DNA of 64,000 nucleotides from Pilatotrama ljubarskyi (Eukaryota > Basidiomycota > Agaricomycetes > Polyporales > Polyporaceae): positions 222,326 to 286,325 of the forward strand of contig MU277707.1 of assembly GCA_022385805.1 (NCBI GenBank), read 5' to 3'. The translations under genes and the position numbers were made by a program. How positions within the stretch are numbered: the first letter of the stretch is position 1; every line of letters begins with the position of its first letter. Shown here in pieces: positions 8,495-58,020 of this stretch. The notes under the pieces were generated by a model, which did no database searches, was not told where the DNA came from, and worked only from the letters and a program-made list of their open reading frames with translations.

Positions 8495-8896
8495 ACAATA
8501 AGGATCACACAGTATTCACACTGTTGGGTGAGACGACATCATTCCTCCACTCCGCTCGGGTTAGGGTTACGCTTTCTGCTGTGATACCTTACAGCGTCGC
8601 ATCACGGTCCAGTAAGTTCTACGACTGTACAAGTACAAGTTATGGGCTGGCAGTAGTAGTACCGAGCGTTCTTGAGAAAACCAGGGACATATGAGTATCC
8701 ACGAAGGCGACCGTATTGAGGCAGCATGCGAGACTCCGTACGTGGACAAGCACGCCTTCACATGCTACTCGAGTAGTACGGAGCAACCTTGGTGGCGCCG
8801 CAATGCTGGCTGCAGCCGTCGTGCAGAGAGTCGGACGTGCCCTACGCATCCAACTCGAGAGCGAAGGAGGCTACAGAGCACGACGCGCTCTCTTCT
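8495..8896. other. intergenic, no gene recognised
   Basis: Probable 5' flank of the tRNase Z gene. No motif or repeat stands out. Confidence 0.4.
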
Positions 8897-17291: not shown

Positions 17292-19161
17292 CTACGCCCG
17301 AGTCAGCGCGGAGCTCCCTTGGCTCCTCGGAGTCCCTGGACTGGCACACCAGAGTGTGTCGCCCGCGCCCGCGCCCGAGGCCGAGCCCGAATTCGAGCTC
17401 AGGGCCACGGCGAAGAGGAGGTCGGACTGAGTGCTAGGCACTGGAGAGGGGCTCCCTGCTTCTTGCATGCTGAAGTAGAAGTGCGTGAGCAGGATGCAGC
17501 GAAGCCTTCGATCGGCGCGACAACGAGGCGTAAGCAAGGGTCGGCCGGTATAATGGATCGATAGAGAGGACGCACGGTGAGACGAATGTGAGTGCGGCGC
17601 TGGCTTGGCTGAGGGCGAGAGACGGCCGGAGGAGCTGTATAACGCCGCGATCAGCAGCGACGATCGAACGGCATTGGGAAGGGGGAAACTCACGCCCAGG
17701 ACGTTGACCACACACTGGAGGACGTTGAGGATGAGGATTACCCTGCGGGACCCAGTCAGAGCATCAGTCGTCTCTCCTTTCAAGGCCATCCGGCAGGACA
17801 GTGCAGAGTGAAGGCAATACGCACACAAAGTAAATGAGCCCTGCGGATTTTTATCAGTACGCAGTACTTCACCATCGCACGACTGCCGACACATAGTGTA
17901 GCAGAGATCGGACGTACCGTCTCTCTGCAAGACGCTCGAGAGCGACCCCGGCTTCGTCCCAAGGACAGTCATGCGGGCCTCGGCGTGGTTCCAGCGGCTC
18001 GTCGACGCCCACGTGACGATGACAACGATCGCCTCGGCGAGGACGAACGCCGTGTAGGATATGATGGCAACTTGCGTTGTCGATCCCGTTAATAAGGACA
18101 ATAGGAGGAGGGAGGATAAGGGACTTACGGCTGGATAAGCAGATAGGTACGCAGATACGTGGGACGTGAGGGCGCGGAGAGCGCGGAAGGCAGATCAACG
18201 GACGTACGTTTCGTACAGTTCCGGCGAAATATTGATAAACAGCATACATCCTTCCACCGGGTCCACGACGGGCCACATGTACCCCCCGAGTAGCATCTAT
18301 CATCCGTCCATGAGTATTGTAAGGCCCTCTATCAACGCCTCCAGCACCGCGTCAGGATGACATAGAGAAGCGACTCACCGCGTCGACGACGACGGGCACT
18401 AGCGACAGCAGGAGCGTAAGGACGAACGGAAGGATCATCCAGAGCCAATGTCGTCCCGATCCGGGGCGCACGGCGGTTGCCCACTGGTTGCGGAGCGCGT
18501 ACACGCGAAGGGAGGAGATCGCTGGACGGCGATGTCAGGGCGAAGTGGAGATTGTGTAGAGAAGCGCAGAGTGCACACCGCCCAATATGCCGTTCTGCGA
18601 GAACTCGAGGATGTACTGCGAGTACACCGTTGCAGCGCATCTTCGCAAGTGTTAGCCAGCGCATGAGCCAAGCCCCAGCTCCATAGATATATCACGCACC
18701 TCTGTGCCAGCAGCTCAGACTCAGTCACCATAATTCAATGGGAAAACGACGGGGAACGCTCACTTTGGGATCCATGGGGAGTACCCACCACGGGGAGACG
18801 TAGAGTGCGATGATGAGGGGCAGGTACCGGTTGAGGAGGAACAGGGCGCGCGCGCCGGTGAACTTGCGCCGCCAGAAGTAGTCGACCTCTTCGTCTAGCG
18901 TGCAGAGAAAGTGGTATGCGAGAAGCACTAGTTCGCAGGCGACATTAGCGTCTCCCAGACGATATGGAGAACGAAGAGACAGTGCGAAAGGGAGGGAAGG
19001 AGGGCAGACAGCGTACCGGCTGCGGCTGTGGAACAGTAGTCCTGCATCACACTGCAGGGAGGCCGGGGTGAGCGTGATGAGAGAAGAGTCTTAAATGGTG
19101 CTCACTCGAACTCTACATCCTGAATGAGCCCAGCGATCTGTGCCTGGTCCGTCGAGTTCAT
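17292..19161 (-). CDS. DUF6533-family membrane protein 2
   Basis: Start ATG at 19,161 (MNSTDQAQIAGLIQDVEFE) with a gtgagc donor directly after. The next coding exon gives the DUF6533 core: YHFLCTLDEEVDYFWRRKF and LFLLNRYLPLIIALYVSPWW (about 18,920-18,780). Further hydrophobic exons: VYALRNQWATA-type segment near 18,480, VLAEAIVVIVTW near 18,030, and a late ILLTHFYFSMQEA near 17,480, the last helix plus start of the cytoplasmic tail. The tail is Ser/Gly/Ala-rich and ends at 17,292. Size and exon pattern match DUF6533 gene 3 on the same strand 4 kb away, so the two look like tandem duplicates. Function unknown; multi-pass integral membrane protein. Confidence 0.75.
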
Positions 19162-21363: not shown

Positions 21364-23279
21364 TCAGACGTAGCAACCTCCATCGGGCAAACTCTCCGAG
21401 CTGCATCCCACCCGAGCAATCGCCGAGCCAGAGCCCGCGAGGCTGAGGTCGTGCAGTAGCGTACCAGATACTGGAGAGGGAAGGCTCTCGGACGTTTCTT
21501 TCAGGCAGAAGTAGAAGTGCGTGAGCAGTATGGAGCGGAGTCTGGCGTTCCGGTGATAGCGACGAGTCAGCGGCTCGGCAGTCTAGTAACGGAAGGAAAG
21601 AGGACGGGACGTACGGCGAGACGAACGTCAAGAGTGCGCTGATTTGGAGAATCGTGAGAGTGGGTTGGATGATCTGCGTGACGCATCGCAGCGTTATCCC
21701 GGATGCGTGGTGGGTAAGTACCAGTGCTATTGGACGCGGAGGCAAAGACGGGCCTGGGTGCTAGGGAGACTCACGCCGAAGACGTCGTTGACTGCTTGGA
21801 AGACGTTGAGGACGAGGATCACCCTGTCCACGCGCCGGACGGGTTCAGTGACACACACGGAGAGCGCGGTGATCCGCTGAGATGTTGTAAGAAGCGGTGA
21901 TACTGTACGTACACGAGATAGGCCAACCCTGCGCCTCTTGTCAGCATCCAGAGTACGATCGCACGAGCGACGAGGGTCAAGACGCACCATTCTTCTTCAG
22001 CACATCGTGTATCGACGTCTTCTTCTCTTCGTTCAACGGGATGACGCTGACTGGTAGCGCAGGCGCCGCGTTGGCATAGGCGTTGGGCCAGGGGGACGCG
22101 GCGATCCAGGTCACAAGGGTAGCGAGGGCCTCGGAGAGAACGAACGACGTATAGGATATGACTGCCACTTTCGTCGCGAAACTCGACGCCCGTCAGTACG
22201 GTTCTTGTGATTGGAAAGAGGGGGTGATGAATGAGACACTAACGGCTATAAGTCCACGACGCGATCAGCTCGTGCACGCGTGAGGGCGGGCAATGGACAG
22301 CGTCGACGAAACGGAGGAAGGACGCACTTTTCATACAGCGGGGTCGGGATGTCCTCGATAAGTGTGCACACGGGGTCCAGCGCAGGCCACATGTACGACG
22401 CGAGCAGCACCTATCTCCGAGTTCCAGCCATGATTGACGGACACTCGTGTATGTAGGGTCAAGGCTACGCACCATGTCTACAACGACAGGGACGAGCGCG
22501 AACACGAGCGTGAGGAGGACCGGAAGGGTCCTCCAGAGCCGATGTACGCGGTTCCCGGACCGGGGGCTCACGGCTGTGGCCCATTGTTTGCGGAGGGCGT
22601 ATACGCGCAGGCAGGCGATAGCTGAGTGGGGACGGGCTCGGTCAGAGCGGAAGAGAGATGAGAAGGTGACGGTCCTCACCGCCCCACAGGCCGTTCTGGG
22701 AGAACTCGAGGATGTACTGCGAATACAACACCGCGGCGCAGCTTCGGGCGTACACGTACGGGGCACGTCAGTTGACGTTCCGCTGCGTTTAATCCGGCGC
22801 ATCAATACTGTATGACACAAGACGTACCCCTGCATCACTCAGTCAGCCGCGGCCATTGTGGAAAGCGAGAGGATTCGAGACACGAATACGCGTGCAGAAC
22901 AAGACGCACTTTCAGATCGGTAGGCAGAGGCCACCACGGGGAGACGTAGAACGCGGTGATCAGGGGTACATATCGGTTTGCCAGGAAGAGCGCGCGCGCG
23001 AAGGTGAGCTTGCGTCCCCAGAAGTGGACGACCTCTTGGTCCAGGGTGAGGAAGTAGTGGTACGCGAAGAGCGCTGGCACGTGGTGGGAATCAGATGCTA
23101 GGCTTGGAGAGACGAAGGGAGGACGCACCGGCTGCCGCTGTGGTGCAGTAGTTCTGCAGAGCGCTGCGAGTAGGGCGGACTTTAGTGCCCTGATCGGTGA
23201 GTCGGGTCTGTAGGCTTGCTCACTTGAATTCGGCGTCCTGGATGAGGGCGGTAATCTCCGCTTGACCCGTCGAGCTCAT
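21364..23279 (-). CDS. DUF6533-family membrane protein 3
   Basis: Start ATG at 23,279 (MSSTGQAEITALIQDAEFK, donor gtgagc). DUF6533 core near 23,080-22,930: YHYFLTLDQEVVHFWGRKL then LFLANRYVPLITAFYVSPWW. Later exons: FSSLRVYALRKQWATA-like region near 22,600, LVFALVPVVVDMV near 22,490, ISYTSFVLSEALATLVTWIA near 22,150, VILVLNVFQAVNDVFGV near 21,800 and ILQISALLTFVSPYV near 21,640. The last helix is SILLTHFYFCLKE near 21,510, followed by a Ser/Gly-rich tail; the stop complement is at 21,364-21,366. It is the best preserved of the three DUF6533 genes for reading the seven hydrophobic segments. No enzymatic or ligand-binding motif is evident. Confidence 0.75.
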
Positions 23280-28143: not shown

Positions 28144-28233
28144 CGTTTTTGTTTTCGTTTTCGATTTCGTTCTCGGGGGAGGGCGATAGAAGAGCGGAGA
28201 CGACGAGCTCGAGCCGCGTCGTGCCGGGCGGTA

Positions 28234-28490
28234 CAGCGCTTGTCGCCCGCGCCAAACAAGCACAATTAATTGTCGCACTCGCCTCTCGTTCTGACCACCG
28301 ACTTCGGTGAACGATATCTCGCTCATTTTCCGCTCAATCTCGTTGATTTCTTCTGTTCTGGGCTCAGTATACTTGCGCGCAGGGCCCCGCAGCAAAATTG
28401 GGCCGCTATCAAGACTTCCTGAAAATCCGAATTTTGGGGCTCGGCGGCGGCGTCGGGGACGTCTCAGGCGACGAGGACGCATCGGAGGAC
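28234..28490 (+). repeat. left 257-bp inverted repeat
   Basis: Begins cagcgcttgtcgcccgcgcc and ends gcatcggaggac. It is matched in reverse complement by 41,902-42,158 with a single A/G difference at 28,466. Similarity stops sharply at both ends. The first and last about 20 bases of the repeat are themselves imperfectly complementary (tcgcccg block). Confidence 0.92.
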
Positions 28491-29019
28491 GGCAGGAACA
28501 GCGGAGACATGCCAGGTAGGACTTACTTCTGTGCTCTATAGATAGCATGCCTTGGAATACTGGCATCGGGACTTTGGGATAGTCCTTGGCCGGCCAGCCA
28601 GGTCGCGCCTTCTTGTCGGAGAAATCTAAGTGCGATCCCGAGGGCGCTAGTCTCCGGAGCGCCTCCTGATACCCGCGCGAACCACCCGGGAGGAAGGCCC
28701 GAGCGCTCCGGACTGCATCAGGAATAGACGCACACAACTCGAGGCCGCTCGAGCGCCTCACGAGATCGATGGGGACGATCGAGATTATCTCACGATCGCG
28801 GGAGGGCATCGCGAATGGCTCGCGAGGCTACCGCTCCTCTCGATCCCGCACGCTGCGCCGTCCATTCCTACATCAACTTTGCATGTTACCGTTCTGTAAA
28901 TCCCCCTTGTTGTCTACGTTATATTTCGAGCTGTATAACACCGCCGTGTTGTCTTTGTCTATCTCTACAGGCAGCACCTAGTGTTCTGAACCCCGGGCCT
29001 GTTCGGCACTCCTCAGCCA
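28491..29019. other. left internal flank of the element, unassigned
   Basis: A minus-strand open frame (28,809 towards the repeat) has no recognised domain. The plus strand contains the 5' region of the Plavaka gene. Confidence 0.4.
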
Positions 29020-32000
29020 ATGGCGCGCGGACCAAAGAAGTCAGCGGTCTTCGTGACCTGCCCTCAATGCGGCAACGACAAGTTAAAGGCGACCGGGTTG
29101 GAGAAGCACATGCGCGCATGTGCAAAAAAGCTGGGAATAGCGAAGGCGGCGGAGGACCTGAGGAGACAATTGAGCCGTGCAGGTGCGTCTTCCCCCAAGT
29201 CCTGTGCATTGCTCGTCGCGCCGAAAACTAGCAGGGACGCTGATGGAAATTCAGGTCCGTCGGGCAGTAGGGCGGATGCTCAGGATGACTCCGATCTCCT
29301 CCGCGACGCCATCTCAAGCGGCGCAAGGTCTCAGATGGGATCGGATGTCGATCTCGACGTCGGTCCCGACGCTGTCCCCGCAGATGGTATGTAGCTACAA
29401 TGACTGTGGTGAACTTATGCTCACCGGTATCAGTGCATGGTGATCCACCGTACGACAAAGGCGAGTCGAGTAGGGCACAAGAACGACGTGAGTATCTTAA
29501 GCAGTGTGGTTTCCTTGCCTGACTGCGTGCCTCTAGGGCGTCCTTCTGTCGAGGTGGATTTCGACATCGACATGCCCGACGCACCCCCACCTCTTGCCGC
29601 AATATTCGAGGATGCAACGTCCAGCTCCGCCTCGTCTTCCAACATCTCGCCGTCGACATCGGCTGCCGATGAGCTCCCGCTCCCGACATTCCGGCCGCCA
29701 ACCCTCCGGAACGCTCCCGCTGAGCTGCGCATTGACGACTTCCTCACCGTCCCTCATCCCAACTCTGGTCGTGCTTCAAGCATCGATCACTTCGAGGATT
29801 TCAACCGCAAGCTCCCCGATGTCGATCTTTCACAGCTGCCAGAGAAGCCCCACGAGCCGTTCAACACACTCGAAGACTTCGACTTCGCCGACTTCACCCG
29901 CAAGACGTCGCTCAACCAAGGCGAGATTGATACACTTTTGGCACTGATCCGTCGCATCTGTGACAAGCCGAGCAACTTGACCTTCGAGAGCGCGAAGGAT
30001 GTCAATACCGCCTGGGAGATAGCATCACATATTGCCCCATCTGTTTGTATAGCCGCACCGTTCACACCCGTTTAGTGCTGAATACCATGTAGTATCGCGC
30101 GCACACTGTGACCAAGAAGTACGGAGCAGAAGAGACCCCGCGTAGCTTCACCTTCTATTTTCGACCTCTCTTTGAGTGGGGTCTCAGCTTGCTGCGTGAC
30201 CCTATCCTTGCGTACAAGTTTGCCTGGGATGCTGTGCGACTGTTCAAGTACGATGGTCAAGAGTGGGAACGCTTTATTGATGAACCACACACTGCGGACG
30301 GGTTTTGGCATATTCAGGTATTTTGTACAGTCGAGAGCCCCTCGGCATTGACCGGTGGCTTACTATGATTTCCTAGTCTGCTCTGCCTATTGGCGGTTCA
30401 CCTCTCTGCTACATTGTATATGCAGACAAGACCCGACTGTCATCATTTGGAACACAGAAGGGTTACCCGATCATGGCACGCATTGCAAACTTGCCGGCTG
30501 AGATCCGCAATGGTACAGGATATGGTGGAGGTCAAGTTGTGGGGTTTCTGCCAGTGGTGAGCATGCAAGTCTTGGAGTTTGCCTGTTCCACTGACTGATC
30601 TGCTATATGCTGTGCAAGGTGGAGGATGAGAATGAAGAGCGCAAGAAGGAGTTCACCACGTACAAGCGGATTATCTGGCATGAGTCGTTCTGGGCCCTGC
30701 TGGAGCATGTCGCTGCCTATGCAAAGACCGGATACAAATTCCGCTGTGGCGACAACATTGAGCGAATTCTCTTCCCGATAATCCTCATCCTTGTGGCAGA
30801 CTATGAAGAGCAGTAGGTGTTTGTGTCTCACTTGATGAGACTCATCTGACAGTGGTGTGACCTCCATTTAGGGCTATCATGTCCCTCACCCGAGGGGCCA
30901 CTGGTCTCTTTCCCTGTCCCATCTGTCGGGTTCCCCGAGACAAGCAGATAATATTAGGAATTCAGCCACAATTTCCATTACGACAACCCTCTGATGGACA
31001 GACTCTTCTCAATGACACCACCCTCTCCAAGAAGGACCTGGAATCCAAACTTCAAGCGCTGAGCCTGCGCCCAGTCTGGGTAAATCTTCTTGACATATTT
31101 GCATGAATTTAGCTGACAGCCGACCCAGAATGTTTTCTGGAATGTCCCACACTGCAATGTCTACCGCGCCCTGTCGTGGGATCGTTTGCATGCATATCAT
31201 GGTGGACTCTTCAGCGACCATCTCTTTGAAGAGTTCAAACAAATAGCTGAGGGTCTTGGGAGGGCCTGTAAGAAACAGATCAATGACCAGTCAGTTTCAT
31301 TGCACACTTCTTGTGATGATACCTTCACTGAACTTGTGAATTCTTAGAGCAGATGCAATGCCATCGTGGCCCAATCTGAACCACTTCTCAGCAATCTGCG
31401 CCGTCACCTTCACTGATGGCAGAAAATATGAAGATATATCCAAGGTTTTTAGTTGTCTATATTGTATAGGGAATGTGCTGAGAATGTGATCAGATCATCA
31501 TACATGCAACCTACAACGTCCTGAACAGGACTGCCTCACTTCGGGGTTATCTTCTTCTTCAATGCATACGCCTTTATGTCATACTCGACATTCTCGCGGG
31601 ACTTGATGTCCAGACAGCCCGCACATTGAGAATGTATGCTACAAAGCTTGTCAGCTTCTCTGCTGCAGTCCAGGTATGTGGGTCAAATATCTAATAGAAC
31701 TGCTATGACTGAAGTAGAGTACCTTTATACATCAGAACTATGCAAGAGTGTACCCCACAAAGAATTGGAACTTCCCTAAGGCTCACACGCACCAGCATCT
31801 CATTGATGATATAATCTGGAAAGGGATCACTGCGGTCTTCAATGCCAAACTCTTTGAAACCATGCATACACCACTGAAGACCATATACACCGACCAGACC
31901 AACTTCAAGGAGGTTGAAGCTCAGGTACGTATGATTCTCCTACCCTCACTTCCTGTCTGCAAATAAGTTCTGGACTGACAGACTTGTATAGATGGTAGTC

Positions 32001-32831
32001 CATGAGCACCGCATGCTGGTGGCACAAGCAATCCGTGCCTGCGTGGATGCAGTCGACCAGGCTCGTAGAAAGGCTGCAGAGCTCAGAGAACCTCCGGTTC
32101 CTCAGAAGAAGGACCCATACCAATTTGACCTCATTCACCTTGGGTCTAAACAAGCACCAGTGACACTAGCACAGCTCGAAGCGGGGAAGAATGAAGACCC
32201 AGATTTCGGTCGATTCCGTCTTTGCCTCGAGGAGTACTTCAACAATCGATTCCCTGATTTCGGGAGGAAGTGGATCAGATTAAGTGCCCAGGATCAGGTG
32301 AGGAGTACTATGTAGACATGGCTTTGTATCCTTGGCAATCTCTTACTTACTCAATTTGATCAGATTATTGAGATGCGCTATCTGAGAGTCGACTACGAGT
32401 CAGTCGTCACCTGGAAACTCGAGACCGATCAACTTCGGTGCAACCCGACATGGCGAGAGAACGAGGGCCGATGGGATCACATCATCTACCGGATTGATGG
32501 GGACGACAAGGCCATCGGTTTTGCTCAGCTCATCTATGTTTTCCTCTTCACATTCAACGGCGTCCAGTATCCGACCGCGCTCATCTCTTGTCTTGACGTC
32601 GTACGTGCCGCTCGACGGAGCACTCAGGACCATGATCTAGGTCTCTGCCGCGTACGCCGGCGGCGGCAAGAGGCACCGAGGATGGAATTCATTCCGATCA
32701 CCTGGATTGTCCGAGGAGCATTGGTTTTGGAGGACTTTGATTCAACGATGGGGGACGCCTTCGTGATTGACACCGTCGATGGGGATATGTTCCTGCGGCT
32801 GAAGCGGGATGTACCATTGTGGGACACTTAA
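29020..32831 (+). CDS. Plavaka-family transposase
   Basis: DDE-type transposase of the Agaricomycete Plavaka family. Thirteen exons join in frame (1,050 aa): 29020-29386, 29434-29487, 29537-30042, 30093-30317, 30377-30556, 30619-30812, 30872-31079, 31129-31289, 31348-31444, 31494-31673, 31718-31924, 31992-32297, 32364-32831. The N-terminus has a C2HC-like zinc finger (VTCPQCGNDKLKATGLEKH...C). Family blocks follow: YADKTRLSSFGTQKGYPI, RIIWHESFWALLEHVAAYAK then KFRCGDNIERILFPIILIL, DYEEQ joined across an intron to AIMSLTRGATGLFPCPICRV, and FWNVPHCNVYRALSWDRLH. The region THQHLIDDI, then ETMHTPLKTIY precedes the C-terminus. No stop or frameshift is needed, so the enzyme may be functional. It shares strand with the TET/JBP gene 1.7 kb downstream. 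Confidence 0.88.
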
Positions 32832-34531
32832 CCTTACTCCATACAGATCAACTATTGCCGCCATGCAACTGAACTTCTCCCCGGATGCGTGTCGGTGTAG
32901 TACCTATCTGGTCGCGCCCACTACACTCGGGTGGGTTTTCGCACTCTTCGTCCTTCCTCCGCGCATGTTGTTCGAGGGTCTGCGCAAACGCCTGCCTCAG
33001 GCTGTCCCTTCGCCCCGCCCGCACATCCTTCTCGAAGGTCAGTGGTCTCTACTACAGAAGTCCTTAGGCTTCGAATCGCAGGACTGAGTCTCGACCATGC
33101 CGTCTGAGTGCCGAGTCAACGGGGATTCCCTTCGCCGTTGAGCAGACTCAGTTCCTCCGAGCATGCTGAGCTGTATTCATCGGAGGTACGTCAATGTCTG
33201 GCATAACGCTCTGCGTGTCAGTATTCTAGTACTAACTGGACATCAAGTCAGCCGCGCGTAGTCAGTGGCCGCGGTGATCGCGGCGCGCGCGCACGTACAG
33301 AGTACTGCCCATTTGGAAGTGGGCACTGCATCCGATCCGATGATCTGTAGGACCTCAACTCGTATGCCCCGGCCGGGACTACTCACCAGTGTCAATGACA
33401 CTGCAGTGCCGCCGCACTCAGCTCGAGCATGGGTCTGAGTCTCAGCCTGCGTATCCGCGTACTGGTATGTGTGCTGCGCGCCCCGTGCCCACTTCAAGCA
33501 ACTACAACAGTAGGCATCGCGACGCTCAGGCGCCGGGGTCGAGGAACCTACTCCAGGCCCCGGCGAGCTGCGTAACGGTGCCCATTGTCCTCGACGGATT
33601 GTCCTCCGTATTAGGAAGGTATATCGTCACGTCGCCTGTGACATGGCTTGATCGGGAGCAAGACAAGACTCGAAGTTCAACCACCAACCGCCCTTGACCC
33701 CTCTCCAACCACTCCGGATCCCTCCCGTCAACTCGAACATAGAGTATCCCACCACGCCCACCACTTGCTAGCCCGCCCAAGCTGTTCCACGCCGTCGTCC
33801 TATCATCTCCCGCGGATCCGACCCTGGAACCCGAGTGTAGGCGTCGTACATCATCCCATCGCGTCCGGCACGGGTGTGGCTCACAGTCTGCGAGTTTGGC
33901 GTGGTTAGTTTCTTTGCCAGGTAAGTTTCCGCCCTCCCTCTCCTTTTTCAGCGTCGCAGCCTCTGTGCGATACCAGTTCGTCGCGGCTGCCTGCTATTCC
34001 CTGCCCCTATCCTCCCGGATTAGCCCTCCACCGCCTCGCCACCGGTCCGAGCCGTTATGCGGCTATCTACTGACACGAGTCCGGCTGTAGCCGCACACCC
34101 CGCAAAGAGAGCGACGCTGAGGAATCTGGGACGCTTCAGCTCATCGGAGTCTGTGCACGCTTCCCACCGTGACAATCGACTAGGTCTGTTGAAGTGAGCA
34201 TTCCCTCAACCCGCTGCGGCTGACCTTTTGGCGCATTCACAGGTCAATCTCCTGGTGAGTCAGCCTCCTCGTGCTGGACTCGAGGGGGTAGCGGTGTCAC
34301 GCGGATCCGACCTTGGAACCCGGATGTTCGTTACCCCCCTCGATGTGAGGCACGACAGCTGAAGGACCAGATTTTTTCGCAAGCATTGGATTCAGACTCA
34401 AGTCATTCGCTACAGCGCCGCACCCGACGATCTCAAGTCCAAACCGATTGACAAGACATGCCTGACTCTGCGTCCACAGGCAGGGTACGTCACCAATAGC
34501 CACGCACTGTGCAGCGTTAACTTTCCTCCAG
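32832..34531. other. between Plavaka and TET/JBP genes; likely 5' exons of the latter
   Basis: No long conserved frame. A 22-base direct repeat (cgcggatccgaccctggaaccc / cgcggatccgaccttggaaccc type) occurs near 33,813 and 34,299. The start codon of the dioxygenase gene should lie here but I could not fix it. Confidence 0.4.
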
Positions 34532-36417
34532 ACTCGTTCCGGCGCCACGTACTCTCCATGGATCATACCCCCGGCGGAAGCCTTCAAACTGGACGTCGAC
34601 CTCAGCCCATTGGCTCAACACGCAGAGCGCCGCGGCGCGCTTGTGTTTGGCGGCCACTCAAAGGATGAAGACGACCTCCCCATCGACATGTACGTATCTG
34701 AGGGCGATACCTCCATTCCTCGACACTCATCGGCTCATCACGCGAATCGCAGCGAGACGACCTCCAGCCCAAACGAGGAAGCTCAACCCGGGTCGCTAGC
34801 CATTGGGAAACCTTTGCCGGACGCGCCTGAAGAGGAGTGCCGCTCCACGGATCCATTCACGTACGTTCCTGCTCCGTACTTCACCGACTCACTGCTCACC
34901 GTTTTCCAGGGATAGCCCGGAAGCAGTGAAGACCCAGCAAGCTCCTCCGCCTTCAGCGGCCCCTCTCGACCCGGACCATCACCTCCCAGGGGAGGACATA
35001 AGTCTTTCCTCGCAGCAGAGCAAGAGGAAAATGCGCGATAAGGTACGATCAAAGAGAAGACGTACTGCGAAGGAAGCCACGAAGCAAGAGCTGGACGCTC
35101 GTGAATCCGTCGAGCGGCATATCAAAGTAGTCGCGCTCAAAGCGCTCCGAAACGCTCAAGCCATACCAATCAAGGTCGACATGTCGGGTATGTGCTTACC
35201 AGCGCGTTCTGGACTACGGCTGATCACCGCTACACCAGGCCCATTGCATCCTTCTGTGGGACAGCAACGCTCGGGCGAGAGCCGTCCAGTCGCGAGTTCT
35301 GGCTTCATTGGCAAGAGGCTAGAGCAGCGCGCTGACGACCGCCGGCCTGTCACGAAGGCGGACGCCATTGTGCTTGGATTCAGATACATCTCATGGGACG
35401 GACGGTAAGCTCACACCTCCAGACTACGAACTAGCTTGTATGTAGACCTAACGTGCTCTTAAGGCAACCGCGCGCCCTTCTCGACAAGCACGACAAGGTC
35501 TTCGCGATGCTGGTTGGGAGTCCGAAGGACCAACAAGCGTGGGCCGAAGTGAACGCTGAGGCGCAGTCGGCATTCGATGAGGCGCGTCTCGCGTACAAGC
35601 TCGACTCGAAACAAGAGAACCATCGGCGAGGATCCTTCCCTGCCGTGGCTGCAGGCATCTCATACGGTGGTGGACAGACGGTGGGTCACATTTGATCATC
35701 CAAATATGCCCGGTTGCTGATATCTCGTTGCATCATCAGCGCGTCAGTAACCTCGCTCACTCCGCGTGGAACGAGGGCGTAATCCGGAAGCTGCTGGCTC
35801 AACCTGCTGTCCGTCGATTGGCGGGCTTCGGAGACGGTATCTTTCATGGTGACTCCGTCGCATACCCCGAGGGTACTCAACAGCATCCAGCGGCGTTCAA
35901 GCTGTATGCGCCTCGTTTGCACAAATACTATTCACGCACCATGCAAGCCTTACGTCGATACGACCGGACTCTCAAGCCCAACTTCAAGAAGAATGTCTTC
36001 GGTAGTGCGACCTTCAATCTCGGTCCACGCGTGGTCACATATGTCCATACCGACCATCTCAACCTGCCGGCCGGTTGGTGTGCCATCACCGCGCTCGGTC
36101 GCTTCGACCCCACGGAGGGCGGACATCTACTCCTCTGGGACCTCAATTTGATGATCGAGTTCCCGCCTGGTGCATTGGTGCTCATCCCATCGGCGATCTT
36201 ACGGCATTCGAACACCACCATCAAGCCGCACGAACGCCGCTACTCGTTCACTCAATATTCTGCAGGCGGCCTATTCAGGTGGGTCGAGTGTGGTTTCAAG
36301 TCGCAGTCGACGTTTCGGGCAGAGGGCGGTGAATTCGACCTCTCCGGTGCACAACGTTGGGAACGGGATGTTGGATTATGGAGTAGTTGGGACGAGTTAC
36401 AGGCCATGCGAGTTTGA
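34532..36417 (+). CDS. TET/JBP-family 2-oxoglutarate/Fe(II) dioxygenase
   Basis: Fungal TET/JBP enzyme, a family that oxidises 5-methylpyrimidines in DNA. Exons read in frame: 34532-34689, 34753-34860, 34910-35187, 35239-35404, 35464-35680, 35740-36417; earlier exon(s) with the start are unresolved. The middle region is basic (KRKMRDKVRSKRRRTAKEAT near 35,050), suited to nuclear or DNA contact. The double-stranded beta-helix core lies in the last exon: FGSATFNLGPRVVTYVHTDH supplies the HxD pair, GGHLLLWDLNLMIEFPPGAL follows, then LVLIPSAILRHSNTTI with the distal His and ERRYSFTQYSAGGLFRWV with the Arg for the 2-oxoglutarate carboxylate. All four expected ligands are present and no stop interrupts. 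The stop is at 36,415-36,417. Family assignment is strong; activity and substrate (5mC) are inferred from the family. Published work links fungal TET/JBP genes to KDZ-type transposons. Confidence 0.85.
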
Positions 36418-37454
36418 GACGATATTGAAGGTACGTCTGCTACAGCATCCTCAACCCACGAGACTGACACAATATATCATCAGACCAGACTCAACGACTT
36501 GTTCTCATGTAGTATTACGAATGAGAGCGACCCCTCGCGACCGCTATAGTCCCTGCGCCTTGCGCTGATATCTTGACAAATCTCGTTCACCGCGTCGTTC
36601 TGTGGATCGTCGGATCGCTTCCTGGGTCGCCGGTGTTTTCTCGGGAACCAGAAGACAAACTACGTCCCTATAAAGGGGCACATGCTCGATCATCTTAGTG
36701 AGCTGCATGCGCACCCTCCATCGTCATCCGATATAACGGGGTATCGCTTGCTTCACATCCTCTCCGTGGAAGGGACAGCATCGCTGATCTTGTTCGCAGA
36801 CCTCCTTCTGCACACATTCTAAGCTCTCTGTGGTACGTCGGCGACGTCCTCATGATCTTCGCGATGATCTACTCACGCCGAGTATTTGCAGGTATTATCC
36901 CGTAACAAAGACACTCAGCTAATGACCACCGACGTGCTCCATTGTGTAGAGCTTGCAGGCTTTCGCGTTGCCGAGATGTGCGTGCAAGACGGCCTCTTTC
37001 GCGACTACCGCTAATCTTTCGACGTGCAGAAGCTGGGCAAACGCGGGTCACTTCTGACATGCGAAGGCAAACAGAAGCTGCAGGAATTCGAAGTGTCATC
37101 TCCGTTGCACGTGGACGACCAGCAGGTGCGCGAGCTTGAATGCCTTGCTCCAGGACGATCCGCTTACGAGAGGCCCAGGCTGCCGCGTATATAGGGAGGG
37201 ACGTCCATGGGTTGTGCTCAGCAAGACGTCTCGAAACAGGGTGCGTGCCACTGGCCTGATCCTGCGGTGTGGTTCCTGAGCCAGTCTACACTTTCAGCGT
37301 TGCGCCCTCTCTCTCGACTCCCCCCGGCGGAATCGCTAAAGCCAAGAACGTGAGTACTCTTGGTCCCGCAACTCTACATTGCTGATAGCCAGCGATTGCA
37401 AGCCGAAGTATCGAGAGCAACCCGCGCAGCACGCTCAGGAGTCTCTGAGCTGCA
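36418..37454. other. between TET/JBP and accessory gene, no gene recognised
   Basis: Only short frames are present. Probably the promoter or 5' region of the accessory gene. Confidence 0.4.
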
Positions 37455-39708
37455 ATGTCAAACAGGATTGACCTACCTTCTAGTGGCATCCAGTTCTACG
37501 ACGACGACGAGGAAGATGAGGAGGTCGAGGAACTTACTCAGGTCGCTGCACGCCCTCGAGCTGAGGACAGAAGCGATGCTGCTCCCGGCGGTGTGCCCGG
37601 CGGGAACGACCACCAGAATGTGGGTTTCCATCTTGTCTATTGAACACCGCTCTCTTACATGTACCTGCAGGCTCTATATTCCCTGCAGTTGACGTCGCAG
37701 CAGCAGCAAGACAAGATTCGTGAACTTCAGATGAAGCTCGCGGCCGCCGAGGCAAAGGCGGCAAAGCGTCCCAAGAAGGGCAAGGCTAAGACAACCGACA
37801 CCCCGCCCAGCGAGGAGCCTATCACCGCTTCTTCTGCGAGCACTGCGGCGCAAGATGAGCCAGAGATCTTCCGACTGAAGGACGTCATCGCGACCGCCGG
37901 TCGGAAGTACTCTTTCGTGACCAGGCCCTGGCCGCCGCCGCCTGCGGCTTGGCAATACACCGAACGCCCGCCGGTTGATCCACTCGACGCTACGACGCGC
38001 TACCCGAAAGATGGCACCACGGAGCAGAAGAGTAACGCCCTTCTCCGAGCGTACGGCGCCGAGATCTACAACCTCTTACCCCTCTCACTACACCCTCATG
38101 TCAACAATGACTTCGTCATCAATGAGGTAAAGTGTACATTCTACTGCAAATTCTCGAGCACAGAGCTCATTATACGACGCAGTTCACTCAGAAGATCTAC
38201 GACCAGAAGAGTAAGATCGTGAGCAAGGCGAGGGCGGCGCGACACCATATATTCAAGGACACTGAACGGCTCAAGCTCGCCGTCCTCGCTTCGGCATCTG
38301 CCCTGGAATCCGACCCAGTGGTCCTCGAATACCGGTCGATGCCGAGCAACCCCTACCCGCCTATCCTGTTTCCCGATGGGAAGGCTGGAAAGACAAAGTA
38401 TCTGTTCATGAGTACTTCGATCGCTTGGGTAAGTTGAATTCTTGTCGAGCATCGCTGGTCCTAAGTAACGTCATATTCTGAGTTCATCCGTGTCACCCTA
38501 TTCGGTCCAAGCTCAATGGACTACACCAACGACGATGCGCCAACTGCGAAGCAATACCAACCACGCTACAATGCGGCAGCGAAGTCGTGGGGTATCAAAC
38601 AGCTGACACCGGGCATGATCGCATTCGCGGCAGTCGGAGTGCGTTCTCGTTTCATTCACGGAGGTGTCATAATGCTAACTCTGCCTACAAGGTTCGCCAT
38701 CTGCTGTACCCAGAAGAAGATTTCGACAGCAACGGATCAACATCGCACGTCCCATACGAAACCTTTTTCAACGAATACGTCAAGATTCTCATCTCATACT
38801 GGACTAGTCCCCGCATCGTGAAGGTACGCGAGTGGCTCACGGCGTTGGTCTTCAAGAACATTGTGGCATCTGCTGCTTCGGCGGGCGCTCTCCAAGGCAC
38901 CCTCGGTGAAGGCGTGGATGCCCTGGACCTCGACGAGCTCAACGAATCGGCGTCCAGTGACGATCAGCAGTCCAGCGCGAGTCCCGTCGAAGATGCCGGT
39001 GCACCAGATCATCCCGCCGCTGACATTCGAGGTCTTCCCATCCTGTCCTCCTCCGGTGTCTCTTACGCGTCGCGTCCTCCCTCCGTGTCCTCCCCCGGTT
39101 TGTCCTACGAGTCGTCGCCCTCGGCGCAGCCCAGGTCATTGTCCCAGCCGCTTGCTGCAGCAGCGCCCAGGTCAGCAGCCGCCGATACTCGGGTCGCACA
39201 GCTGCCGACAACGTCTACCGCCTCCGCTGCTGGGCGCGCTCGTCCCTCTGTACTTGCAGCTGCCGAATCGATCTCCGGAGGTCCACCCGGCGGGACAGCA
39301 CAAGCCCCGGGCTTCCGGCGTCCGACAGACTCCGAACCCACCCAAGATGCACGGGCGGTCGCCGGTTTCGCTCACCCTCAATATGCTTCAAACCCCAACG
39401 AGCTCGCAGCAATATTCGACGAGGTATCGCTTTCTGGAGGTCCGGTTGGCGAACAGCACCATGTCCACGAAGAAGCCGCCGCCCCCATCCCAGCCCGGCC
39501 GGCTGCAGCCGCCTCCGCTGTCCCCATTCTAGCGCCTCCTGCAGCTACACGCAAGGGTCCTGCGGTCAAGCCTCGAAAGGCGCGCCCGGCAACGACGGAA
39601 GCACAGGACGTCGCCACTGGAGGCTCGCACACAGTCCCGCCATCGGGGGATCCGACCGACTCGCGTCCTGCCGCTCAGCCCCCGCGGCGTTCTACCAGGA
39701 AGAAGTAG
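37455..39708 (+). CDS. transposon-linked accessory protein of unknown function
   Basis: Five exons: 37455-37619, 37671-38126, 38183-38428, 38483-38638, 38692-39708 (679 aa, frame consistent). The N-terminus is acidic (DDDEEDEEVEEL), then a coiled-coil-prone helix (SLQLTSQQQQDKIRELQMKL) with a Lys-rich patch KRPKKGKAK. The conserved central block contains KIVSKARAARHHIF, PYPPILFPDG, FIRVTLFGPSSM, WGIKQLTPGMIAFAA and VRHLLYPEEDF. This block occurs in many Agaricomycete hypothetical proteins near DNA transposons, as far as I recall. The last 330 residues are Ser/Pro/Ala-rich and disordered and end in a basic RRSTRKK. No catalytic motif is recognised. Its intact frame and position 1 kb behind TET/JBP suggest it is part of the element's gene set, perhaps DNA-binding. 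Confidence 0.7.
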
Positions 39709-40052
39709 AGTCTCCTGTGTTTCGGTATGTACGCTGTCATCCCGCTATCAATGCCGAACGTCTCCTCATCCGAATAGCACACAATTCGAGTGCGATCAGT
39801 ATATGCTGGTCCAAGCCTGTGGCAACCCGGCAAAGGGATGGTTCAGAGAGGGGTGGGATGGTAGACTCGTGAGGTACATGTGAGGGAAGCCTGTAGTATC
39901 AACAATTTCGTCGACTTCGTCGACATATCTAGTCTCTATGCTCGGTCTGCTGTCTTCTGCGTGTGCCGGCCTACGGTGAGATTGAAATCGCTAGTAACTA
40001 CTACCACCGTCTGAGATCGTGTCATGTTGATTCACTTAACAAGGAATACAAA
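39709..40052. other. 3' flank of the accessory gene
   Basis: No coding or RNA feature seen. Confidence 0.4.
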
Positions 40053-40135
40053 GTCCCTTTGGCCTAGTGGTTTTGCGGTCCAGCAAGCGCTTAGGGTCTC
40101 CCTAAGGTCGCGGGTTCGATTCCCAGTCGCGCCCC
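40053..40135 (+). pseudogene. tRNA-like sequence, possible SINE head
   Basis: Has an A-box-like ttggcctagtgg at 40,059-40,070 and a near-perfect B box ggttcgattcc at 40,113-40,123. A D arm (ggcc/ggtc) and a perfect 7-bp hairpin cttaggg-tct-ccctaag are visible. The 5' end does not pair with the 3' gcgcccc, the T stem pairs poorly and no normal anticodon loop fits, so it is not an intact tRNA. Downstream (to about 40,340) the sequence repeats ctggtaagt-like units, which would suit a tRNA-derived SINE. Confidence 0.5.
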
Positions 40136-41012
40136 ACGCACCCACAAGCGCTCGAAGGTAAGGCCTACAAACTGGTAAGTCACTGGTAAGTCAACATTCT
40201 AAGCACTGCATCTAATGGATAAGTTCCGCAACAGTAACCTCTGCAAACTACAGGTAAAGCGACGCAGTAAGCCAGTAATTGGAACAAGGTAAGTGTAAGC
40301 GGATAATTACAGTAAGTAACTCTCTAAGTACACTGGGAACACCAGTAATGGGTGTACTGAATGCTCTCGACTATAGATTCAACGGGCATGACTGGCGTAC
40401 TCGTGAATCGGAATTTTTCCGCCGGCAGGTACCCGAGATCTGGATTGCCGCGGGAAGGTACCGGATGGCCGAAGACCCTTCCGACGTCATCACTTCTTCG
40501 AGAGGCTGCGTGATCGTGGACGAGGTGCCGGATCTCGGGTTCCTCCTCCGCATGCATCCAGATCTGGGCCTCGCATTCCGTAGGCGACCCGCCCTCGGGA
40601 TGGTATCCCGAAGCCATCAGGAGGCGCCTCGCGAAGAAATATCTCCCCTCGCGCAGCAACCCGGGCCGCGAACCCTCCGAGCGCCTCTCGAGGCCTCCGG
40701 ATGCGCGTGAGAAAAGTCCGACACTAGCTGTACAATACACATACACCGCCCCTCGGAAACTCGTAGTAGCTCGGAACAGTGCAATGGAAATATGGTTTCG
40801 TACACCAGCTGCATGCGGAATAGAGAATGCGTGCAGAATGTGCGAGCGCACCAAGCTGCGGCGTCGACATCAAGCCTCGGTGGTCGCGCAAGTCAAGCCT
40901 GCGCGCTCACCGCTCATTTTGCTTGTGCACCCGACTCCCGACTCCCGACTACTGGCAGCCTCACTCCTCACGCCGGCATGGTCACTCTGTGCTAGTCGCT
41001 CTGTGCTTTCCT
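40136..41012. other. tail of the tRNA-like unit and unassigned sequence
   Basis: Short frames in three phases overlap from 40,280 to 40,850, none with a recognised domain. Confidence 0.35.
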
Positions 41013-41351
41013 ATGGGCAATTCAAAGAACAAGCGTTCAAGAACGTCAACAGCTCAGCGCAAGCGAGTGACGAAGTCAGTGCCAGCACAGCCGCCCGGGC
41101 ACGAGTCGGCCATCGCTCCCTCGAGTCCGAAGAAGCCCAAAAATCCTCCCAAGCCAAGGCCCATCAAGCCCCCCGTGGCTGAGCAGAAGCCCAAAGATCA
41201 AGAGCGACTGCATGCAGCAGCTTGTGCCTTGGCCGAGATGCGGTCCAAGGGATCCGACGGTCACCGTCTCACGTCTCAAGCCGCCAGCGAGTCCGGCGCG
41301 CTGGCTCAGCCGCGTCCAAACCCAGAGCCCATGATACATACCTTCAAATGA
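41013..41351 (+). CDS. small Lys/Pro-rich hypothetical protein
   Basis: ATG 41,013 opens a 112-residue frame, MGNSKNKRSRTSTAQRKRVT..., rich in Lys, Arg and Pro (KKPKNPPKPRPIKPP). It would be basic and unstructured. It is in the style of N-terminal exons of transposon proteins, so it may be a stranded first exon. It overlaps the 3' end of the Tc1-like fragment on the other strand. No domain is recognised. Confidence 0.35.
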   Translation: MGNSKNKRSRTSTAQRKRVTKSVPAQPPGHESAIAPSSPKKPKNPPKPRPIKPPVAEQKPKDQERLHAAACALAEMRSKGSDGHRLTSQAASESGALAQPRPNPEPMIHTFK

Positions 41352-41566
41352 TCAGACGTCGAGGCACTAACCCGGCCTCCTCGAGCTACCCCGGCAGCGA
41401 TGCCTCCGTAGGTGTCGAATAGACGTAGTGTGCGCTGGATGGTTCGCAGGTTGAGTCCGGTTGAGTATGCGATCTGGTGCGTAGACATGTCCCAGATGTA
41501 GCGCATATGCACGATAACCCATCGTAGATCGTCTGATAGAGGCCTTGTCGCTGAGGTTCTAGCCAT
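41306..41566 (-). pseudogene. N-terminal fragment of a Tc1/mariner-type transposase
   Basis: Starts MARTSATRPLSDDLRWVIVH and contains a helix-turn-helix: MSTHQIAYSTGLNLRTIQRT, then LRLFDTYGG. This is the homeodomain-like DNA-binding head common in fungal Tc1/mariner transposases. The frame ends after 86 residues and no DDE catalytic region follows, so it is a truncated relic within the larger element. Confidence 0.6.
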
Positions 41567-41901
41567 GGTGGATTCAACTCGAGGGAGACTGGTCGTCAGA
41601 GAGGAAGGAGCATGAGCGCCGAGTGCTCATGGCCCGCGGTGATCACCTGCGGGGGCAGATGGCCGTTCCGTCTCGTGTACCTACTCGGTCACTTTCAGGC
41701 CATAGTTCATGTGGGAGCAGAGATGTGCAGATTTGAAGACAGGCTCTTGGAGTGATCAATGCAGGGGGGAGTCGTGGTATATACTCAACGGACCGGACAT
41801 GGGCACGACGTATCCTATATTATGGAACATGACCATACCCACTTCCAACCATCCGGTGCCCTCCAGCAATGGCGTACAGACTTTGCACCGCCGGTCCTAT
41901 T

Positions 41902-42158
41902 GTCCTCCGATGCGTCCTCGTCGCCCGAGACGTCCCCGACGCCGCCGCCGAGCCCCAAAATTCGGATTTTCAGGAAGTCTTGATAGCGGCCCAATTTTGC
42001 TGCGGGGCCCTGCGCGCAAGTATACTGAGCCCAGAACAGAAGAAATCAACGAGATTGAGCGGAAAATGAGCGAGATATCGTTCACCGAAGTCGGTGGTCA
42101 GAACGAGAGGCGAGTGCGACAATTAATTGTGCTTGTTTGGCGCGGGCGACAAGCGCTG
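41902..42158 (-). repeat. right 257-bp inverted repeat
   Basis: Reverse complement of 28,234-28,490 with one mismatch. It ends ...gcgggcgacaagcgctg at 42,158, 147 bp before the start codon of the kinase-like gene. Confidence 0.92.
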
Positions 42159-42304
42159 CGAAAAGCGCTGTAAGCCCAGTAAGCGCGGCGTTCTTACTCG
42201 CTCTAGTCGTGGGAAACTCGGCCTGGCCGCAGCCGCGGTCGAGGTGGGCGTCGTGCAGTCGCACTCGCACCGCGCGCAACGTCGCTGAGCCCCAGAGCAA
42301 CGCC

Positions 42305-44474
42305 ATGTCCGACGGAGCACGTCCGCTCAAGACCGTCTGGGCCGTGCTCTACAGGCCGACGCCCTCTGACCCATGTCGATTTCTCGATCGCTTTGTGCAC
42401 ATGTGCTCACCCTACGACCAGATCGAAACTGCTTACCATGTTGCCTTCAAGATGTCCGCGGGCCCTCTCCAAACTGCATTGGTTCCCAAAGACATAGACG
42501 ACTTCCTCTTGGAGTCCTACGCAGTAAGCACGGGCGCACAGTGCTGTGGGCTCGCCTCGTTCGCGTACTCACGCCGGCAAACGACAGCTGCCAGATCCAC
42601 CGTGTCCCCTCAGCGTGCCTCTCATAGAGCTTAGGAAAGCCTACGAAGGGAGAGTCAATCAAGCCGATTTCGCCGACCACTGCTGCCGGTTGAATCAAAC
42701 GCTCCCATTCGGAGACGTCGATCCCAAGTGGCTGGAGAACCTGGTCCTCATCCTTAGTGCGTACCACCACGCGATGACCCCTTGCCCCGCTCATACAGTG
42801 CCCACAGCTCCGCGCTCCCTCGCTTCACCTTCTCGCAGTTCTCGTCTCACGCCAGCGCCCGAGGAAGACCCTTATCACCGCTGTACGCAAACCCTTCTCT
42901 CGTGTGAACTCGTCCCTGATGCCCTCGCGCAGCACGGGAGAGGATTGCCTCAGTGGGTCGGCAGCGCAGGTCGCCCTCACAGGAAGCCGCTCCGAGTCGG
43001 TTACTGAGCACTCAAACATCCAGCGGCGAGGACCCTATTTACAACGGGCGGCCGATTGACCTCACAGGAATACCGATCACCATCTATCACCCGGCCTTTT
43101 CAACCTTTCTGCGTGTCTGGAACGGAACGGAAGAGCTTCAGCGGCAAGAGATTGCCTGTGCACGGAGATTCGTCACCGCCTGCGCCGAGTTCTACGACTC
43201 GGAGACAGACCGAACGGAAGCTCTGGAGCGTGGTGGACTTCCTGAGGCTGTTCAAGCCGCTGTCACCATCCTACGTGAAACGACACTGAGACTATCGTCG
43301 ACCAAAACGATCACGCCTGGTGGCGTCGTATACGGAAGACTCGCCTTGTCATCCCACACCCCGGTGATCTGCTTTACGGAGGTGAAGTCGGAGATTGGCC
43401 AAGGCGGTTGTGATCCGAATGACGAGAGCCAGCAATGCTACAAGGCATTCTACTGCTCAGACGAGGTGAGCGAGCCGTTCTTCTCTGCGTAGCATCAATC
43501 TCAGTTGTCCCCTCAACCTGCAGGGAAAGGCGTTCCGGGACGTGTCGTGCTGCCCTTGCCTTACGCTGGCGATCGCCGGCCCGCATATCATGGTGGGCGG
43601 AGCTGTGTATGCCGACCGCCTCCTTGCGCAGAGCCTCACGGACTACATCTACGTTGGGTCGCGCTGTACGCTCGGGGACTGGTCTCAGTCCGAGGACACA
43701 ATATGTCGCGTCGCGCGGCTCTTTCGCGCACTCAAGGTGACCATCGCCGAGCTGGACGAGTACTACGTCTCTCTGTCGCTCCCACCCCCGTCTCGGTTTG
43801 GGCCTGGACGACGGTCAGGGTCCGCACGCACGCAATCGCGGGCCTCCCAGCGTGCATACCCGTACATTGGGCCACATCTCCGGCGACTGCGTACGGAAAC
43901 GGGCGGAGAGATTTTGCTGGAGTACACGGGCGCTCTGATGCGCGATGAACCGCGCAAGGCACTGTTCACGGCCCGCGCTGACTTTGGCGATCGACGGCCA
44001 AAGCGCGATGTCATCGTCAAGTTCGCATATCGGTACTGTGAGAAGGCGCACCGTTTGCTTGCAGAGCAGGCAGAGCCTTTGGCCCCGCGACTATGGTTCT
44101 GCGAGAAGGTGCAGAGCGTGGGGATGTACGTCGTCGTGATGGACCACATCAAGGACGAGGACGACCGGGAGACGATGACGGCGGCGCAACGTGCGCAGCT
44201 GAGGAAGGCGGTTGGGCTGCTGCACGAGCAGAATCTGGTGTTTGGCGACTTGCGGGATGCGAACCTCCTTTTACGCCGGGGCGGCGGGCTGATGCTGGTC
44301 GACTTTGACTGGTGCGGGGAGGAGGGGAAGGTGCGATACCCCTACGACATCAACATGAATGGCGACATCGGGTGGCACGAGGACGTCGAGGGCGGAGAGC
44401 TGATCAAGAAGGAACACGACTTGTACATGCTGAACTGGCTCGTGGAGGATGCTGAGCAGCCCGGCCCAGCATGA
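42305..44474 (+). CDS. protein-kinase-like fold protein, Agaricomycete family
   Basis: Four exons: 42305-42523, 42588-42756, 42954-43465, 43524-44474 (616 aa, frame consistent). The C-terminal half carries kinase-like signatures: VIVKFAYRYCEKAHRLL (candidate Lys strand), VGMYVVVMDHI (hinge), LHEQNLVFGDLRDANLLL (catalytic-loop-like D..R..N) and LMLVDFDWCGEEGKVRYPYD (the metal-binding DFD in place of DFG). GxGxxG is not obvious. This GDLR..N/DFDW arrangement occurs in many Agaricomycete PKL-fold proteins whose substrates are unknown. The start MSDGARPLKT is conserved in the broken paralogue at 8.9-10.4 kb, which also confirms the second-exon acceptor. Its promoter abuts the right end of the Plavaka/TET element. 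Confidence 0.7.
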
Positions 44475-45683
44475 AGGAGAGCACGTGTCGTGCTCTGTGG
44501 CCTCTTCCGCTCTGAAGTTGACTTGCATATGTTGCGCTCTCTCGCTCGCAGGACATGCTGAGTCGTCCACAGAATGAAAGAGTGGATGGACTTGCGCTCT
44601 GCTTTCGAATTCTACGCGGTGTATTCGTACTGGCACTATCAGTATGGGTCTACTTGATGCTCACATCTCGATGCTTGATCTGGGACACCGTACGACCTAG
44701 CCATACTGTATCGTACACCGTCCTCGTGACACCCAGTCAACAACCGCGCAGTGCCTTGCACCTCACGCACACACGGAGTAAGTACTGATGCGTCGTGTGC
44801 GCCCTCATTGTCCCTGTCTCCCCGAGTACCCTCATTCAGGGCGACCCCCGCTGGACGCGTCCGAGTCGTCCTCGTTCAGCCGCGCATGCATACGTACCAC
44901 GGCACTTGACACACATGGTTCTCTCGACGGTAAGACATGACTGTGCTCGAGTCGTACTCGATGTGGTCGTGACCATCTCGGAGATTGTCATTGACCCACT
45001 GCCTACTGCCAGGGAGGCGTCCGCACGCCTCGGCATCATCTCCTACGAGACGCCGACGAGGGCATCCGCTTGTCCACTGGCACCTGTGCATCGAGTACAG
45101 TGAGTATATGTGCATAGATGAGCGGCAGCCGCTAGCGGGCAAATTAGTCATACCAAGGATTTAGCCCGCCGAAGGCGGGCGCCAAAACGGCCCAGGACGT
45201 CCCGGAGGGGTTCCGAATATGGTACCCAGGATGGGGTCAATCGAGATTGCCCTGTCAGCGCCTATACCATGCCTCTGCAGAATGTCGATACTTCCATCCC
45301 ACGAGGCTATGGAACTTCAGCGGTATACCGGTCCCCGTCTGCCCGGAGGATGTTCCTTCTGTATGACCATACTTGCGACAAATGAACTTACCTTCTGATT
45401 CAGGCAAGAGAGCGCTTCTGCTTATTTGCCGATGCCGACACTAACGTACACACTCTCATATAGGCATCGCGTACCTTCATGAGTGTGAACGTTGCCACTT
45501 TTCCTGGGTTGTGTCCTGTATGATAGCGAGCCAGTATATATAGTGCTATGTACTCGGGGCGCTCGGTCTTCACACCACCCCTGTCAAGTGGCATTAGGGG
45601 TGTCCATAGTAGGCTGCTGCTTACACTATCCAGCCATTTCTGCCCCAACTTGCTGTCTCCGAGTCAATCCTCTCCAAACCGCC
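44475..45683. other. intergenic, no gene recognised
   Basis: Short frames only. A GC-rich inverted motif (gcccgccgaaggcgggc, about 45,164-45,180) is a small hairpin. Confidence 0.4.
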
Positions 45684-51410: not shown

Positions 51411-51848
51411 TAGTGATGTGCTGGGCCCGGCCTGAGGCCATCGAAGCCCCCAAGCCGAGCCCTCAAAGCCCGAGCCGAGCCGGGCCTTGGTGAGCGGCCT
51501 GAAGGGCTTGCAGGCCCGGCTTTCGTTTTGTCAGGCCTGAGCCCGGCCGTGAGGCCGTCCAACAGTTACGGCCTGGTAAGCGCTCATCTAGCGCCCGTTC
51601 GTCGTGAGCCAGTCGACTTTATTCGCTGATTTTTTGCTTTCAAAACACCTAATCTTAGACTTATAGTCAATCACCCACACTCACCCACAGGCCGGGGCTC
51701 AGGCCGAGCCGGGCCCGAGCTGGGCTAGTCTCGTGACCAGACATTCGGAGCGCAAATTGGAGGTGAAAACTCGGGGACAGCTGCGCTCCATAAGGTCTGG
51801 TGGCAAACTCCCCGTGACTCCTGGATCGGTGACTTTGCATGACACCTC
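51411..51848 (+). repeat. left terminal inverted repeat
   Basis: The outer 20 bases and the inner block 51,724-51,848 (gctagtctcgtgaccaga...gacacctc) match the right end. Between them lie GC-rich subterminal motifs (gggcccg, aagcccg) and about 200 bases (51,500-51,700) without counterpart on the right. Confidence 0.85.
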
Positions 51849-51910
51849 ACACTCTGACGCTCACTGCTGCGCTTCGCCCGACATCCCCGAGCTGCTTCGA
51901 CGCACGCGAC

Positions 51911-57667: not shown

Positions 57668-57783
57668 TGCTTGTTCGTTTGATATGGGAAAGCTAGACCG
57701 AGGGCGTGGAAGCTCGTGAGGGCGTGTACAAGTGGCAGTGCGAAGAAGTCGTTCGGGCACCTCGGAGACGGACTCCGGGATGA

Positions 57784-58020
57784 GAGGTGTCACGCAAAGT
57801 CACCAATCTAGGAGTCACGGGGGGTTTGCCACCAGACATTACGGAGCGCGGCTGTCCCTGAGTTTTCACCTCCGATTCGCGCTCCGAACATCTGGTCACG
57901 AGACTAGAGCCGGGCTTGAGCCGTCAATGGAGGCCCGGCCCGAGTTTCTTTTGAGCCTGAGCCCTCAAAGCCGGGCCCGGGCCGGGTCTTTCAGGCTGAG
58001 CCGGGCCCGGCACATCACTA
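57784..58020 (-). repeat. right terminal inverted repeat
   Basis: Reverse complement matches the left end: outer tagtgatgtg(c/t)...gggcccgg and the inner block from the ctagtctcgtgaccaga motif to gacacctc, with scattered mismatches. The start of the helicase gene lies just inside it. Confidence 0.88.

Follow-up and report, generated by a model that had tools for sequence, protein, structure and literature searches.

Transposons that carry a TET/JBP dioxygenase gene together with a Plavaka transposase have already been described in fungi. In the parts of a recent survey that deal with TET cargo, all of them are PlavakaB elements from Agaricus bisporus and Gymnopus confluens, and their TETs are listed among the PE-type (HxE) enzymes (Kojima 2025, PMC12730594). 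For Boletales, Polyporales and Russulales the same parts state only TET-carrying Kyakuja. They credit Iyer et al. 2014 with implying that Plavaka and TET are linked in Trametes versicolor and Fomitopsis pinicola, and describe TET genes as ones that "seem passively transferred", their edges bearing no signature. Here we analyze a window of 64,000 nucleotides from Pilatotrama ljubarskyi (Polyporales; contig C38:222326-286325, contigs being labeled C1, C2 and so on below). Positions 28614-40723 very probably constitute a cut-and-paste Plavaka (CMC-like) transposon with PlavakaA-type termini and a 2-bp target-site duplication, in which a TET gene that would have been captured once lies as cargo between the transposase and a DUF6698 protein, the whole unit being nested in an older structure.

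Like the TET-carrying Plavaka of A. bisporus and G. confluens, this element unites a Plavaka transposase and a TET/JBP gene in one transposon, and 2-bp duplications occur in both; those PlavakaB elements of Agaricales end in 5'-CATCA..TGATG-3', whereas the window element lacks these ends and has TGTCGGA..TCCGACA, and its TET has an HxD rather than an HxE motif (PMC12730594). The 5'-TGT..ACA-3' termini and 2-bp duplication are shared with PlavakaA elements, and the HxD-type TET with the TET-carrying Kyakuja (KDZ) of Agaricomycetes, which differ in having another transposase, 7-bp duplications and no terminal inverted repeats (TIRs), as far as the TET-related parts of the survey describe them (Kojima 2025, PMC12730594). 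Plavaka with TET is thus already known; what appears to be new here is the combination of PlavakaA termini with the HxD motif, in Polyporales.

When the window is compared with its sister loci, the limits of the mobile unit become clear. The 33.1-Mb genome (173 contigs) was searched with window DNA 28200-35000 (31 matches) and 35000-42300 (24 matches), and loci for terminus extraction were selected by having matches that reach the element edge. The left limit of such matches is 28614 (for one of them 28613, by alignment), and the right limit is 40723 or 40724. The terminal 7 bp are identical in 7/7 left ends (window, C60, C8, C27, C5, C51 and C55) and in all 12 right ends extracted, TGT..ACA-type termini are additionally found at the C13 left end and the C51 and C13 right ends, and the flanks beyond the shared 7 bp are unrelated between loci. 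The 2-bp duplication matches in all six elements with both ends (that of C27 spanning a run of N), an agreement expected with random bases about 6 times in 100 million. We therefore place the element at 28614-40723, on the strength of its shared termini, its duplications and the limits of the sister matches. The window, C60, C51 and C13 elements contain no N and that of C8 contains ten, while the C27 element includes a run of 23,253 N, so that its unity rests on gene order and the TG duplication; a 27-kb insertion splitting C27 was considered and rejected, the intervening stretch being this N run.

The sequence-only reading of the window had placed an intact 13-exon Plavaka transposase, a TET/JBP dioxygenase and a 679-residue transposon-style protein here, all on the plus strand, and each of these assignments holds. 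The transposase model is open and matches PF18759 over profile positions 1-322 of 325 (151.7 bits, cut-off 26.3, E 3.7e-44); judging from its family, it would be the enzyme that moves the unit. The 679-residue protein matches DUF6698 (PF20414) at 44.5 bits against a cut-off of 23.7, is 100% identical over the 427 residues searched to the annotated protein P0121 of the same contig, and has three relatives in the protein search. DUF6698 looks like a standard Plavaka partner, because 10 of its 12 places in the genome have a Plavaka match no more than 6 kb away, against about 1.3% predicted from coverage; none of these ten has a match within reach in the genome TET match list. A literature search, with subscription journals largely outside its coverage, found no paper on DUF6698.

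The dioxygenase reading frame is open through five introns, its product has the TET-type double-stranded beta-helix fold, and the iron-binding triad consists of HTD and a distal H in the window, C60, C8 and C27. Identity to CcTET of Coprinopsis cinerea (8jkk, 7w5p, 7vpn) is 15%, and an ungapped count from HTD, made along the sequence rather than by structural pairing of residues, gives N and C at CcTET positions 331 and 337, where the CcTET paper names Gly331 and Asp337; AG-type TETs of the survey carry Gly or Ser at the first of these positions and Asp at the second (Kojima 2025, PMC12730594). The family profile Tet_JBP (PF12851) is matched by 5 of 24 relatives (best 1.1e-6), and the C60 protein P0002 (E 0.0073) falls below the cut-off.

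Within this one genome, transposase, TET and DUF6698 occur in the same order in the window, C60 and C8, and likewise across the N gap in C27; C5 has a closely related transposase, soon after which its contig stops. In a tree of 45 rows, the TETs from the window, C60, C8 and C27 group together as a single clade (support 100/98). The transposase tree (7 rows) has the same branching and separates TET-carrying from TET-free elements at 100/100; the fork joining the window and C60 is supported at 90/92 by the transposase tree and at 99/79 by the TET tree, short of the level that the tool stars. The data support the proposal that the TET and DUF6698 genes travel with the Plavaka transposase as one mobile unit, as judged from this sequence comparison. 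That part of the sequence-only reading, which had the dioxygenase moving together with a Plavaka transposase, stands; its choice of the ends does not, as set out below.

Thirteen TET matches were found in the genome, at ten places. After manual merging of the Plavaka and KDZ match lists into 35 and 15 places, five TET places have a Plavaka match no more than 6.5 kb away (window, C60, C8, C25 and C84), two have a KDZ match within that distance (C149 and C10, whose TETs are related, with 56% and 51% identity), and three have neither (C27, C167 and C34). The Plavaka match and the TET of C25 were considered as one element and rejected: C167 shares the TET side and diverges at C25:150410, before the Plavaka match, around which a search for CATCA-type ends found none usable. 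From C25:150410 onward, the two contigs share 97.5% identity across more than 7 kb, and C167 seems to represent the other haplotype of C25.

Two sister elements suggest how the TET gene may have come to lie where it does. The C51 element (L011/L033; 12,578 bp) and the C13 element (L012/L034; 13,373 bp, right end at 47491) share their termini, transposase and DUF6698 with the TET-carrying elements, and the genome TET search gave no match in either. Their DNA aligns over 1-4169 and again from 9084 on (C51 numbering). The unaligned C51 stretch holds RPB1 repeats and three VPS35 stretches and is a copy (96-97% identical) of host C24:61878-66507, broken into three pieces by two gaps, with TTGG shared at one joint; the corresponding C13 stretch holds a GATA finger and is 88-89% identical to host C27:25763-27782. 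Because these stretches match host DNA, it is apparent from the alignments that host genes are copied, in two elements, into the slot that separates the transposase from DUF6698 and that is occupied by TET in four other elements. The TET gene was likely acquired by the same route, since the same slot in two sisters holds recently copied host genes. The arrangement resembles plant Pack-TYPE and gene-capturing CACTA elements (PMC8903248, PMC13317346) in having host coding copies inside a DNA transposon, and differs in being fungal, in retaining the transposase gene and DUF6698, and in using one fixed slot. Among the papers listed in a literature search that left subscription journals largely uncovered, none describes gene capture by Plavaka.

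As to the two 257-bp inverted copies with a single mismatch that the sequence-only reading had reported, they are present as described, differ far less than chance would allow, and extend to 271 nt at 98%, separated by 13,383 nt. They had been taken for the ends of a 13.9-kb transposon holding everything between them, and near-perfect inverted repeats do enclose the genes, with TA on both outer sides. This has very little chance of being right. The repeats are not the ends of the Plavaka unit, because homology with the sister copies stops at 28614 and 40723, where TIRs and a 2-bp duplication are found; no sister element with the same genes has the repeat, which occurs at just two places in the genome, both of them here; and the Plavaka element is not centered between the arms, lying 123 bp from the left one and 1,178 bp from the right. 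Neither a solitary repeat near unrelated genes nor an allele in which the genes were assembled independently of the repeats was seen, yet the interpretation fails on the sister copies. The assembly holds no second, empty allele, and the flank is single copy. The single difference in 257 had also been read as a sign of a young insertion. It does not date the insertion, because a DNA transposon's inverted ends, unlike long terminal repeats, do not derive from a single template at insertion.

The arms are better explained by an older structure into which the whole Plavaka unit would have inserted at CT. Without the Plavaka element they bound a 1,825-bp stretch, which might be a transposon of some 1.8 kb flanked by TA. 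The outer edges read TA followed by CAGCGCTTGTCGC at 28232 and GCGAAAAGCGCTG followed by TA ending at 42172, and the motif TACAGCGCTTNTCGC was found at only these two edges (control 0). Tc1-type ends often start with CAG after TA. A Tc1/mariner-like element with ends CAGCGCTT...AAGCGCTG, invaded by Plavaka, is accordingly a reasonable guess that we rate as evenly poised: TA on both outer sides, the confined motif and a helix-turn-helix frame between the arms speak for it, whereas the element is single copy, a 2-bp match arises by chance once in 16, the helix-turn-helix match is below the Pfam cut-off, and no DDE domain was found in the four right-flank frames scanned. A search for protein homologues of that frame found none, and it has two weak genomic matches besides itself. 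The competing guess, to which we give a little under an even chance, is that the arms arose from host DNA duplicated locally in inverted orientation, without a transposon of their own; the presence of only two copies, both at this locus, and the nearness of the left arm to a CBP3-like gene fit it, and TA with the end motif at both outer edges does not. That gene has a 74-76% paralogue at C163:680-1724, and the arms match the DNA upstream of it over no more than 21 bp, which also counts against a duplication.

Table 1. Features of the element and its surroundings (window coordinates)
Feature	Position	Strand	Details and basis
Mobile unit, TET-carrying Plavaka element	28614..40723	+	12,110 bp; sister-locus DNA matches; termini TGTCGGA...TCCGACA (5'-TGT..ACA-3')
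Target-site duplication CT, left copy	28612..28613	.	edge extraction
Target-site duplication CT, right copy	40724..40725	.	edge extraction
Predicted pre-insertion site without the element, inside the 257-bp structure			...GCGCCTTCT/AGCTGTAC...
2-bp duplications by element			window CT, C60 AT, C8 AG, C27 TG, C51 CG, C13 GA
Plavaka transposase	29020..32831	+	13 exons, 1050 aa, no stop, GT-AG introns; gene model; PF18759
TET/JBP-fold dioxygenase, HTD...H motif	34753..36417 (modeled exons)	+	482 residues; non-ATG trial start 34688; first exon provisional
DUF6698 protein	37455..39708	+	5 exons, 679 aa; gene model; PF20414; annotated P0121
257-bp inverted repeat, left arm, outside the Plavaka element	28234..28490	+	repeat search
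257-bp inverted repeat, right arm	41902..42158	-	repeat search; 12 bp more (42159-42170) repeat the arm's outermost motif
TA, outer edge of left arm	28232..28233	.	possible target duplication of outer element
TA, outer edge of right arm	42171..42172	.	
Open frame, weak helix-turn-helix match	41309..41626	-	possible outer-element transposase remnant; HTH_23 20.4 bits, cut-off 24.6

Two further explanations bear on the cargo itself. That TET, transposase and DUF6698 are neighbors by chance or through host clustering, forming no unit, is scarcely credible: the three TET loci more than 6.5 kb from any listed match to Plavaka or KDZ would fit it, but one of them (C27) is accounted for by its N run, the three genes are enclosed by matched termini at three places that are free, or almost free, of gaps, and the transposase and TET trees are concordant. 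We also regard it as improbable that the TET is a domesticated regulator serving the host and merely sitting in the element. Strong constraint would be expected there too, but four copies at different sites accompany the transposase, and constraint is similar on all three genes, whose ratios of nonsynonymous to synonymous substitution rates (dN/dS) span 0.06-0.18 with and without an identity filter. Against C60 and C8, respectively, the filtered window values are 0.078 and 0.075 for the transposase, 0.087 and 0.064 for TET, and 0.097 and 0.097 for DUF6698, and the unfiltered ones 0.104 and 0.071, 0.137 and 0.105, and 0.175 and 0.136.

Several points weigh against a captured, co-travelling and retained TET as we propose it. 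The identity filter lowers dN/dS, dS itself (1.1-1.9) is near saturation, and the C8 transposase has one in-frame stop among the compared codons. The window TET protein has no Pfam match at E 0.1, and sequence searches of solved structures found no TET, returning weak unrelated matches (up to E 9) or none; for this reason its identity as a TET rests on fold, motif and relatives. The C51 and C13 right ends were each chosen among three TCCGACA sites by context and duplication, and the C51-C13 DNA alignment stops exactly at the chosen bases. Loss of TET from C51 and C13 followed by refilling of the slot is, moreover, equally open as a direction to gain of TET.

Taken as a mechanism, the transposon with a TET in its cargo slot would have acquired that gene once, as its sisters did their host genes, and would then have retained it because it was useful to the element. 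Its product would most likely oxidize 5-methylcytosine on element DNA and so blunt host silencing; for this putative relief from cytosine methylation we see about even odds.

Near the right end of the element, at 40063-40135, lies a tRNA-like sequence with A- and B-boxes, and the same region is present in C60 and C27. The B-box pattern is found in these three and, by the strict pattern, not in C8, C51 or C13 (C8 aligns with changes). Neither ARAGORN nor Rfam called a tRNA in this region, and scanning the window and 13 loci for tRNAs was as unproductive as the Rfam scans. Elsewhere in the window, 8851-10386 and 42340-44520 share several inverted matches (74-92%) between two kinase-like regions, a pattern that a multi-copy family would produce; Pkinase is matched weakly at 43470-44471. 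The inverted copies at 51725-51851 and 57781-57907 (127 nt, 90% complementary, 5.9 kb apart) may be another inverted-repeat element, and three pairs of direct repeats spaced about 4.1 kb from each other (17460-18929 and 21496-23075; 75-85%) suggest tandem paralogues.

For a TET-carrying Plavaka, the locus provides base-level boundaries and target duplications in a type and an order for which the TET-related parts of the 2025 survey have none (PMC12730594). The visible uptake of host genes in the slot makes the question of TET capture testable, and the presence of TET-carrying and TET-free sisters in one genome does the same for the anti-silencing idea. Fungal PlavakaA elements may, more broadly, be gene-capturing transposons with a fixed cargo bay, in which TET was caught once and kept for the element's benefit while sisters carry fresh host genes, a generalization that we think could equally prove right or wrong. 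If true, the cargo bay would give the missing route by which TET enters transposons and moves between their superfamilies.

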